This document shows positions 11,001 through 23,550 of a DNA stretch of 32,762 bases, in pieces. Made by a program: the position numbers and the translations under genes. Origin of the DNA: Candidatus Aenigmatarchaeota archaeon (GTDB lineage: Archaea; Aenigmatarchaeota; Aenigmatarchaeia; GW2011-AR5; JACRMX01); NCBI GenBank assembly GCA_018304635.1, contig JAGVVW010000008.1:1-32762 (forward strand), written 5' to 3'. The notes beneath the pieces were generated by a model, which was not told the origin of the DNA, searched no databases, and saw only the letters and a program-made list of their open reading frames with translations. Positions within the stretch are counted from its first letter, which is position 1, and each line of letters begins with the position of its first letter.

Positions 11001-11090
11001 GCAACCTTTTTGCAAGACTTATGAACTAATCTATGCAAAAACGTTGACGAAAATATATTATTTTTCTCAGCAACCTTTTTGCAAGATTTT
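11001..11090 (+). repeat. Dispersed palindromic repeat, copy 2
   Basis: GCAACCTTTTTGCAAGA occurs at 11001 and again at 11070 (69-bp period). TTTTTGCA (11007-11014) pairs with TGCAAAAA (11034-11041) across 19 nt, and then ACGTTGACGAAAATATATTA follows. Compared with copy 1, both stem strands have changed together (GG/CC to GCA/TGC), which supports a selected hairpin. Confidence 0.8.
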
Positions 11091-11135
11091 CGAAATATTG
11101 TCAGAGATTCCGGAAAAATAGAAAACAAAAAAATT

Positions 11136-16688: not shown

Positions 16689-16885
16689 TAACCCTTCTTG
16701 GAGAATTAAAATTTAAAACTACCAAAAGCGTTAATGGAAAAAATATTATTTTCTTTAGTAACCCTTTTTGGAGAATTAAAATTTAAAGCTACCAACAGCC
16801 TTTTTGGAGAATAGTGTTGTTGAACTCTATGACTTTGCATCTACCAAAAACCCCGGGGAAAAATATATCTAAATAAAATATAAAA
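16689..16885 (+). repeat. Dispersed palindromic repeat, copy 3 (three successive units)
   Basis: Units begin at 16689, 16759 and 16798. The first two share AACCCTTYTTGGAGAATTAAAATTTAAA and CTACCAA; in the third, TTTTTGG (16801-16807) pairs with CCAAAAA (16844-16850). Stems in the first two are eroded. The GTTGACG block is altered to GTTAATGG in unit 1 and CCCCGGGG in unit 3. The left edge abuts the start codon of the methyltransferase gene. About 70 further nt to 16957 hold nothing recognisable. Confidence 0.75.
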
Positions 16886-20807: not shown

Positions 20808-20858
20808 AAATAAATTGTAAGACGAATGTTTAAATATTATATATGTAATAAGTTATTT

Positions 20859-23093
20859 ATGTCAAGAGTCGTGGGTAGTACAAAATCTATGATATTTGTC
20901 GTTTTATTGTTTATTTTATTAACTGTATTTTTTGTTTTTTACAGGGATTTGCTGTTTTTTCCAAGTGGAAATTTTTCTTCAACTACTACAACTTCAACCA
21001 GCACTACAACAAGTACAACAACGAGTACATCCACAACTATAAGTTCGATAACGACAACTACGAGTACGACAACCACGAGTACGACAACAATAACTACAAC
21101 AACGATAGTTCCTTCTTTTGATCAATGGGTATTGATAGGTCCGGGAAGTTCTGGTCTTAGTCCGAGTATTGTTCAGTCAGGAAATAATATATATTTAGTA
21201 ATTAATTGTGGCGGGGCAAGAGTAAGCAGGGATTCGGGTGAAACATGGCAATTTGCAAACAAAGGATTTGATTATCAGAAATTCGGTTCAGATGCAGATG
21301 ATATGCAGGTTATAGAACCACATCCGAAAATCAAAGATCTTGTTTTTGCCGGAGGAAAAACAGGTGTATATAGAAGTACGGATAATGCTTTAACATGGTC
21401 ACGTGTTTTATCCGGAGAAGAAGCAAAAATTGGTGACATAGCTTTCAACCCCTTAAATAATAATATTATTTACGCTGCTACCGGCAGACTTGATGCTAAT
21501 GAACCATATAATAATGTGGCAAAATCCGAAGGAATTATTTGGCGAAGCGATGATAAAGGTTTAACATGGATCGAAGCGGGAAAAATAGAAAATGCAAATA
21601 TATATTCTTTGGCGATATCTCCGGAAAATAAAATTTATGCTGCTACAAACACAGGATTATGGAAAAGTCTGGATAATGGAAAATCATGGCAAAAACTTTC
21701 TGGCCTTCCTCATGATCGTCCAGTGACTGTAAAATTAGACAGATTTGATCCAAAAACAATTTACGTTGTTCTGCTTACAAATCCTCAAAATAAAGGAGGA
21801 GTATGGAAAAGCATTGATGAGGGAGAGACCTGGCGAGATATTACTTCAAATCTTATCAGTCCCAGAATTATTAGACCCGGAAAGGAAGTTTACAATGTTA
21901 TTCAGTATAAAGATTTTGAACAGCACCCAACTGATAATAATACGATTTTCATTACTTCTCTGTATATTAAAGGCGGAGGAATCTGGGTTTCCAGGAACAA
22001 CGGTTCCAGCTGGGAAAGCCTGACAACAGAAGAAAATATGGCAGAGGGATGGGCTGACAACAAACAGTTTTTCGGCATAGATCTAAGTATTAACGAGTAT
22101 AATCCACTGGAAATGGTTTTCACATCAGGTGGGGAATCCAATGGGTTTAAAACAATAGATGGTGGAAAAACATGGGTTCCTCTGCATACGAAAAAAACAG
22201 GTGTTGTTCAGGGAAAAAATACTTATTCCAATAAAGGCATGGAAAGCTATAAAGGTGCAATAGCTGTTCATCCTGATAATACAGGTATCATTCTATTAGG
22301 ATACGGTGACCATGGAATTTTCAAAAGCGTTGATGGTGGCAAAAATTTTTTCAGGGTTGCAGACAAGGCTTCAGATGCTAATTTTATACGCTTTTCAATC
22401 GCAGACCCAAACAAAGTATATATGGTTTCATGGCAGCCTGAAAAAAATATGTGGATAAGCAATGATGCAGGGTCAACATGGGAATTAAGAAATCAGGATA
22501 ACATGGAAATGCTTGATGTTCTGCCGCATCCGAGAAAAAAAGATATTGCTTTTGCTGTATCCAACAAAGGATTGCTTAAAACTGAAAATGGAGGTGACAC
22601 ATGGAAAGCTATTGAAATACCGGATGCAAAAAATATAAAATCCATTTCATTTATGAATAATAAACTTTTGTTTGCTGCCGGAGGAAAGGAAGTCTATATG
22701 AGTTCAAATGACGGGTCAACGTGGTTGCTGGCTTATAAATTTGATGCATCTGTAAGAATTTATTCTGTTTTTAGTCCGAAAAGCAATATATTTGTGGCAA
22801 CTGATGATGGTGTTTATAAATCAGAAGTTACAAACGAAAAGATAAATGAATGGTTTCTTGTTCTACCGGAAAAAGGTATGACAATTGTTAACGGTGGAGG
22901 TGATTTTGTTTATAGTGCATCTTTTAATGGCAATGGCATATGGATGTCAAGACTGAATGGAAATTCCGGGACATGGACACAAATAACTGGTGAGTGGTCA
23001 GGTGACATAGAACACATGACAGCTGACCCGAAAAATCCAAATATTGTATATGCATCAGGAAAATGTGCAGGCGTATGGAAAAGAGTTAATTGA
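20859..23093 (+). CDS. Membrane-anchored or secreted Asp-box beta-propeller protein
   Basis: 744 residues from ATG 20859, chosen because the TTTAAATATTATATA box lies 20-30 nt upstream; an in-frame ATG at 20826 overlaps that box. One hydrophobic helix (about 11-31) acts as signal or anchor. It is followed by a Thr/Ser-rich linker (about 42-85), probably O-glycosylated and extended. The rest is a repeat domain with 11 Asp-box motifs of the S-x-D-x-G-x-T-W type, such as SRDSGETW, SDDKGLTW, SIDEGETW, TIDGGKTW, SNDAGSTW and SSNDGSTW. This gives a sortilin/GH74-like beta-propeller pair facing outside the cell. Whether it is an enzyme or a binding surface protein cannot be told. Confidence 0.82.
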   Translation: MSRVVGSTKSMIFVVLLFILLTVFFVFYRDLLFFPSGNFSSTTTTSTSTTTSTTTSTSTTISSITTTTSTTTTSTTTITTTTIVPSFDQWVLIGPGSSGLSPSIVQSGNNIYLVINCGGARVSRDSGETWQFANKGFDYQKFGSDADDMQVIEPHPKIKDLVFAGGKTGVYRSTDNALTWSRVLSGEEAKIGDIAFNPLNNNIIYAATGRLDANEPYNNVAKSEGIIWRSDDKGLTWIEAGKIENANIYSLAISPENKIYAATNTGLWKSLDNGKSWQKLSGLPHDRPVTVKLDRFDPKTIYVVLLTNPQNKGGVWKSIDEGETWRDITSNLISPRIIRPGKEVYNVIQYKDFEQHPTDNNTIFITSLYIKGGGIWVSRNNGSSWESLTTEENMAEGWADNKQFFGIDLSINEYNPLEMVFTSGGESNGFKTIDGGKTWVPLHTKKTGVVQGKNTYSNKGMESYKGAIAVHPDNTGIILLGYGDHGIFKSVDGGKNFFRVADKASDANFIRFSIADPNKVYMVSWQPEKNMWISNDAGSTWELRNQDNMEMLDVLPHPRKKDIAFAVSNKGLLKTENGGDTWKAIEIPDAKNIKSISFMNNKLLFAAGGKEVYMSSNDGSTWLLAYKFDASVRIYSVFSPKSNIFVATDDGVYKSEVTNEKINEWFLVLPEKGMTIVNGGGDFVYSASFNGNGIWMSRLNGNSGTWTQITGEWSGDIEHMTADPKNPNIVYASGKCAGVWKRVN

Positions 23094-23104: not shown

Positions 23105-23163
23105 CTATTAGATAAAATAAACCAATGGGCTGGTAGATCAACTGGAAGATCGCTTCCATGGCA

Positions 23164-23293
23164 CAACCTTTTTGAAGAATTGAAATCTGCATCTATCAAA
23201 AACGTTGACGAAAAATATTATAGATGAAGAAAAAAGCATGTATGGAAAAAAGAACAGTTGCAATCCTTTGATTTGTATATTAAAAATCCAGAA
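23164..23293 (+). other. tRNA-Ala intron 1 (37/38), made of the dispersed repeat (copy 4)
   Basis: The intron starts CAACCTTTTTGAAGAATTGA. TTTTTGA (23169-23175) pairs with TCAAAAA (23196-23202), followed by CGTTGACGAAAAATATTA; a decayed second start GTTGCAATCCTTTGA lies at 23258. This is the dispersed repeat with another co-varied stem. Junction structure: exon TGG (23159-23161) pairs with intron CCA (23288-23290), bulge CAC (23162-23164) is cut after A, and bulge AAT (23292-23294) is cut after the second A. Confidence 0.85.
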
Positions 23294-23315
23294 TGGAAGA
23301 GGCTGCGAGTTCAAG

Positions 23316-23431
23316 CTAACCTTTCTTTTCAAACGAAAGACGCATCTTCGATGCGTCAAGTCGTTAAAGAAAGCTTAAGGTCACCAAAGAAAGACATCTG
23401 GCTTTGCATATAAAATGAAAGGCTATGAAAA
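23316..23431 (+). other. tRNA-Ala intron 2 (59/60, T-loop)
   Basis: Exon TTCA (23310-23313) pairs perfectly with intron TGAA (23426-23429). The 3-nt bulges AGC (23314-23316) and AAT (23430-23432) hold the cut sites. An inner helix TAACCTTTC (23317-23325) pairs with GAAAGGCTA (23417-23425) with one mismatch. Inside is a perfect hairpin GACGCATC/GATGCGTC (23339-23357). This is a textbook bulge-helix-bulge at a non-canonical site. Confidence 0.85.
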
Positions 23432-23445
23432 TCTCGTCCAGTCCA

Positions 23446-23550
23446 TTGCATCTTTTTCAAGAATTAAAATATATGTCTATGAAAAACGTGCACGAAAAAT
23501 ATTATTTTTATCAGACACCTTTTTCAAGAATTAAAATATATGTCTATTGT
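23446..23550 (+). repeat. Dispersed palindromic repeat, copy 5, abutting tRNA-Ala 3' end
   Basis: TTGCATCTTTTTCAAGAATT begins one base after A73. TTTTTCA (23453-23459) pairs with TGAAAAA (23480-23486), then CGTGCACGAAAAATATTATT follows. The second direct repeat starts near 23515 (67-bp period). The stem bases differ again from other copies, yet stay paired. The rest of the gap to 23692 holds nothing else I can name. Confidence 0.8.

Follow-up and report, generated by a model that had tools for sequence, protein, structure and literature searches.

Positions 23316-23431 of the window, as we call the whole 32,762-nt stretch of DNA analysed here, hold 116 nt that interrupt the T-loop of a tRNA gene in a DPANN archaeon (assembly of 1.08 Mb, 88% complete). 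Is this insert a genuine tRNA intron, would its removal call for an unusual endonuclease, and where did it come from? Introns at position 59/60, several introns in one tRNA and the transposition of introns among tRNAs have all been described before, chiefly in Crenarchaeota (PMC4090602, PMC4033280, PMC8450103), and archaeal splicing endonucleases recognise a local RNA motif (PMC12397907).

Results

When the three exons (Table 1) were joined, ARAGORN recognised a tRNA-Ala(ggc). The spliced molecule has 73 nt, CCA not being encoded, and with both introns out it is a clean tRNA-Ala whose stems and identity elements are all preserved and whose loops have the right length: the acceptor stem GGGCTGG/CCAGTCC, in which G3:U70 and the discriminator A could be read directly, the D-arm GATC-AACTGGAA-GATC, the anticodon arm CTTCC-ATGGCA...T-GGAAG and the T-arm GCGAG-TTCAAG...T-CTCGT. 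Two introns split the gene, one at the canonical position 37/38 (intron 1, 130 nt) and one at 59/60 in the T-loop (intron 2, 116 nt). A two-intron tRNA finder, which demanded all four stems and allowed introns, gave this gene a score of 24.0, the top rank in 377 kb of the host genome; a Markov-shuffled control of one strand of the same 377 kb yielded nothing at 18 or above. The tRNA-Ala(GGC) of a relative, G021, matches it in acceptor and D-arm sequence and in anticodon, the 5' halves being nearly identical. This ortholog (L041) has a 15-nt anticodon intron and an uninterrupted T-loop; the 116 nt are therefore an insertion relative to an ortholog.

Table 1. Features of the tRNA-Ala(GGC) locus, in positions of the window.
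Feature	Position	Strand	Remark
tRNA-Ala(GGC) gene	23127..23445	+	ARAGORN on spliced exons, finder score, relative G021
Exon 1	23127-23163	+	
Intron 1, 130 nt, canonical 37/38	23164..23293	+	relaxed splice-site fold, central helix 3/4
Exon 2	23294-23315	+	
T-stem, 5' strand	23305-23309	+	
BHB central helix, TTCA / TGAA	23310-23313 / 23426-23429	+	
BHB bulges, AGC and AAT	23314-23316, 23430-23432	+	3 nt each
Intron 2, 116 nt, T-loop 59/60	23316..23431	+	
Dispersed repeat element	23316..23411	+	5' end is intron base 1; 3' limit approximate
BHB inner helix, TAACCTTTC / GAAAGGCTA	23317-23325 / 23417-23425	+	8/9 paired
Outer triplet pair of element, TAA with TTA	23317-23319, 23375-23377	+	
Element stem, CTTTCTTT with AAAGAAAG	23321-23328, 23366-23373	+	
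Nested palindrome in element loop	23331..23365	+	arms GACGCATC 23339-23346 / GATGCGTC 23350-23357
Third arm of element, AAAGAAA	from 23386	+	
BHB tail region: GAAAGGCTA, TGAA, AAT, then T-stem 3' strand CTCGT	23417..23437	+	missing from intergenic copies
Exon 3	23432-23445	+	
Two further repeat units after the gene	23449-23505, 23516-23547	+	related to 5' part of intron 1

The splice site of intron 2 is a bulge-helix-bulge (BHB) of the strict hBHBh' type, with a central helix paired 4/4, an inner helix paired 8/9 and the T-stem as outer helix. An earlier, sequence-only reading of this DNA had placed the same TTCA/TGAA helix, 3-nt bulges and 8-of-9 inner helix at these positions, and had noted that the standard bulge cut restores a 7-nt T-loop. 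The coordinates bear this out: cutting after base 2 of the bulge on both sides removes exactly 23316-23431 and leaves TTCAAGT flanked by GCGAG and CTCGT. When the intron was shuffled 20,000 times with its dinucleotides preserved, a 4-bp central helix combined with an equally good inner helix occurred once; taken singly, the central helix was in place in 1.7% and an inner helix as good was present in 0.2%. The earlier call of a clean BHB and a non-canonical intron in the T-loop was thus upheld by the sequence, by the shuffles and by the ortholog without the intron. The computed minimum-energy fold paired the 5' splice site in a different register (-36.5 versus -34.5 kcal/mol for the BHB) and gave the inner helix of intron 2 a low probability. 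The BHB lies 2 kcal/mol above the minimum because a hairpin of the repeat described below competes for the inner pyrimidine strand, and we speculate that, given this competition, the order of folding during transcription may matter.

Most of intron 2 is a copy of a dispersed repeat. The tRNA-Ala gene region matched about 40 further places in its own genome at E<0.001. An exact 32-nt core is common to intron 2 and the intron in the tRNA-Val(GAC) T-loop (L059), and 49/51 nt are identical between intron 2 and the D-loop intron of tRNA-Gln(CTG) (L007). Similar introns in the tRNA-Ala T-loop, the tRNA-Val T-loop and the tRNA-Gln D-loop are the pattern by which transposed introns are recognised; copies of the repeat were also seen in anticodon introns of other tRNAs. 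Seven apparently intergenic copies align from CTAACC, that is, from intron base 1, and the DNA before this point is unrelated; in none of the seven is the ...GAAAGGCTATGAAAA tail visible that completes the BHB. Element-like units in the 377-kb sample lay mostly outside ORFs (24/28), although ORFs make up 81% of it; for this analysis of location only units with a C before the pyrimidine stem were used, since the scan also returns chance matches. Intergenic copies (L101, L102, L105, L110, L111, L116, L124 and others) often stand 4-20 nt ahead of a start codon that is read from the other strand; their reverse complement (AAAGAAAGGTTAG...ATG) would thus be a gene leader or promoter.

The repeat belongs to a wider superfamily. 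One tandem-type unit of it makes up the 5' part of intron 1, and a related unit sits inside the T-loop intron of another tRNA (L004). The two units directly downstream of the tRNA-Ala gene contain 54 nt at 83% identity to this part of intron 1. G001 and G077 contain related units too, and in G021 and G028 such units adjoin the tRNA-Ala genes. More copies of the downstream repeat occur in the window at 11008-11102 (78% identity) and 16694-16785 (74%). The T-loop introns L004, L065 and L114 are tandem arrays of a unit of about 60 nt that starts exactly at intron base 1.

The units have the layout NNN-C(C)-stem-loop-stem'-N(N)-NNN'-(N)CGG-third arm, where the third arm repeats the start of stem'; the subfamily of intron 2 has one C per side, not two. 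The search for elements used the stem as its criterion and left the NNN/NNN' pair free. This pair was complementary in 26/58 units against 4.8 expected by shuffling (maximum 11 in 300), a count that takes related units as separate and so overstates the number of independent events. The triplets seen were AAG/CTT, CAA/TTG, TAA/TTA, GCA/TGC, TCA/TGA, ACA/TGT, CAG/CTG and ATG/CAT. As judged from this comparison of units, the stem of the repeat covaries strongly. A scan for the triple repeat over 755 kb, both strands counted, gave 78 matches versus 21 in shuffled DNA, the shuffled count of G001 being left out because its control was degenerate. The perfect hairpin that had been reported inside the intron is indeed there, but as a smaller palindrome that is itself repeated and lies within the element it is not peculiar to the intron: the GACGCATC palindrome recurs at about 8 other places, and nested palindromes are present in element loops.

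These copies could be explained without any mobile repeat if intron 2 were an ordinary intron that recombination had copied among tRNAs, the intergenic copies then being decayed excised introns or chance low-complexity hairpins. Transposition of introns among tRNAs is known from Thermoproteales (Fujishima et al. 2010, as cited in PMC4090602 and PMC4033280), and a single genome does not show which way a transfer went. The intergenic copies, however, retain the 5' boundary of the element and its covarying stem while being devoid of the BHB tail, and many are antisense and close to start codons, which is unexpected for decayed introns. We therefore regard this explanation as unlikely. Our tentative preference is for a repeat that entered tRNA genes, not one that left them.

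As to the enzyme, one EndA was found in the host, a single-domain alpha protein of 186 aa that can be aligned over its full length to M. jannaschii EndA (E 1.5e-32); the N. equitans alpha subunit gave the next-best alignment. Aligned in this way, Tyr116, His132 and Lys164 are the catalytic residues. Between Tyr and His lies a six-residue basic insertion, KRGPKS (123-128), present as (K/R)(K/R)GPK in 30/30 EndA proteins of the class that were aligned (L070-L099); a similar insertion occurs in N. equitans alpha and is absent from M. jannaschii EndA. No CSL or ASL loop precedes the catalytic domain, the alignment with M. jannaschii being ungapped where the ARMAN-specific loop is expected. The host genome yielded no beta subunit and no fused three-unit EndA (about 390 aa), although a MAG that is 88% complete could hide a second subunit. 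RtcB is also present, in one copy.

The sequence-only reading had held that this site implies an endonuclease of broad specificity, advised a look for a heteromeric or three-unit EndA, and named the absence of any endA gene as an objection to the intron. The last point falls, an endA gene having been found. A need of the tRNA-Ala gene for a heteromeric or three-unit enzyme would agree with genomes rich in non-canonical introns, where broad specificity is usual (PMC12397907, PMC4090602), with the imperfect central helices of intron 1 and of some T-loop introns of the host, and with the likeness of the basic insertion to that of N. equitans alpha. We nevertheless consider it improbable: the only enzyme found is the 186-aa alpha without the ARMAN-type loop, neither a beta subunit nor a three-unit form came to light, and the BHB of intron 2 is strict. 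With a strict BHB and one alpha EndA, no broad-specificity enzyme is required at intron 2, and the implication drawn earlier is unsupported. Going by PMC12397907, even alpha'2 enzymes limited to canonical BHBs should cleave a strict BHB at any location, and so probably that of intron 2. Some relaxation of EndA is possible in view of its basic insertion and of the imperfect central helices elsewhere, but does not follow from intron 2; the class-wide insertion would be a candidate for relaxed cutting of less perfect sites.

In the host, endA adjoins the genes for tRNA-Asn and tRNA-Phe (G000:C37:11852-13900), and it lies beside them in many class relatives as well (L070, L076, L084, L088, L089, L091, L097). 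A second weak EndA-domain match, on contig C31, was rejected, as it sits in a glycosyltransferase-like ORF.

The tRNA-Ala gene is missed by standard tools: neither ARAGORN with introns permitted in the anticodon loop nor Rfam found it in the raw window. On the host assembly the Rfam tRNA model gave 8 tRNAs above threshold and 22 including weak matches. Allowing introns raised this to about 30 tRNA genes across the loci fetched, nearly all of them interrupted in the D-loop, the anticodon loop, the T-loop or several of these, and in L065 and L058 in all three; the sole uninterrupted gene was tRNA-Val(CAC) (L002). The host genome was covered by searches and by targeted stretches, including a 340-kb sample of large contigs. 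T-loop introns were present in 15/27 high-scoring host tRNAs (the central helix was not a criterion), a biased estimate, as the loci came from weak tRNA and repeat matches, despite which an Rfam search would rank intact tRNAs first. T54-T55-C56 pairs with the intron 3' end in the exact BHB register in 13/15 T-loop introns of the host and in 16/17 of class relatives; support was less clear in the sister genome G001, with just 4/7. Other host introns, intron 1 and some T-loop introns among them, have imperfect central helices. Near-identical T-loop introns were also seen in different tRNAs of single class relatives (L039 and L197 of G063; L186 and L196 of G082), an example being GCAAATCCCTTTTCCGAAAAGG... 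in tRNA-Ala(TGC) and in a second tRNA.

Failure of standard finders, an AT-rich genome and exons lying far apart might also be taken as signs of a tRNA pseudogene or remnant, with decayed exons separated by random AT-rich DNA. This is highly improbable: the four stems and the identity elements are intact, the spliced exons form a clean tRNA-Ala(GGC) of which the genome holds no other copy (its 5' half is single-copy), and about 30 other tRNA genes are likewise disrupted, with BHBs. A group I or other self-splicing intron, though some archaea do have group I introns (PMC6125680), has a negligible probability, since no Rfam intron model matched at the gathering level or at a relaxed threshold and the BHB fit is exact.

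Discussion

Our data make it very probable that intron 2 is both a real, enzymatically spliced T-loop intron at position 59/60 of tRNA-Ala(GGC) and a copy of a dispersed structured repeat. In the cell, EndA would cut the strict BHB after base 2 of each bulge, and RtcB would join the tRNA-Ala exons. The 5' end of the repeat would serve as the 5' end of the intron, and the other BHB strand would come from a 3' tail some 20 nt long (GAAAGGCTA-TGAA-AA).

The T-loop appears well suited as a landing site, since TTC(A/G)A is present in almost all tRNAs and a single tail ending in ...GAA-NN can therefore form the central helix in any tRNA. With the T-stem serving as outer helix and the universal TTCA providing the 5' half of the central helix, a match is needed only from the 3' tail of the intron. 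This universality would let one intron serve many tRNAs. We tentatively put forward, as a possibility somewhat short of even, that the short, non-coding, structured repeat is an archaeal counterpart of eukaryotic introners, inserting into tRNA loops and intergenic DNA alike: its 5' end would provide the 5' splice site, an acquired 3' tail would turn it into a BHB intron, and the universal T-loop would be where it lands. The manner of its movement is inferred along with this proposal.

Several known systems resemble this one in part. The 59/60 introns of Crenarchaeota and Nanoarchaeota (PMC4090602) are alike in position, in BHB type and in the canonical intron of the same gene, whereas here the host is of a DPANN class, its EndA is a single-domain alpha protein and T-loop introns occupy more than half of the high-scoring tRNA genes recovered. 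The transposed introns reported in 2010, as far as PMC4090602 and PMC4033280 relate them, are also near-identical introns of different tRNAs in one genome; compared with that account, there is here in addition a dispersed intergenic hairpin repeat with a covarying stem, whose 5' end is the 5' splice site. For Caldiarchaeum, a model in which tRNA introns are gained through mobile elements (PMC3293823) likewise ties intron gain to mobile DNA, but it involves an integrase-bearing element with attachment sites, while the present units are non-coding, palindromic and about 60-100 nt long. Pyrobaculum calidifontis (71 introns in 46 tRNA genes, PMC8450103) has multiple introns per gene, up to three, too; it is of an unrelated lineage, and the present host differs in having the T-loop as a major site and a single uninterrupted tRNA among those seen. 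In the openly accessible literature on tRNA introns of DPANN, Woesearchaeota and Nanoarchaeota, we found no earlier report of this pattern, no account of class-wide T-loop introns in this DPANN group and no tRNA introns described as copies of an intergenic hairpin repeat. What is new is the identity of intron and dispersed repeat in this lineage; 59/60 introns and transposition were already known.

One sequence that occurs as T-loop intron, D-loop intron and intergenic repeat with a common 5' edge makes the source of an intron testable. This bears on how archaeal tRNA introns arise and spread, transposition among tRNAs having previously been inferred. Standard finders also badly undercount the tRNA sets of such genomes, which affects estimates of completeness for DPANN.

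Two observations concern the neighbouring genes. Downstream of the tRNA-Ala gene lies a CDC48 gene whose closest named relatives are from Pacearchaeota, Woesearchaeota and Nanoarchaeota MAGs (48-57% identity). Just upstream, a 755-aa ORF (20826-23093), read by eye, appears to start in a low-complexity linker rich in Thr and Ser, after which come repeated motifs that resemble sortilin/glycosidase-like beta-propellers.
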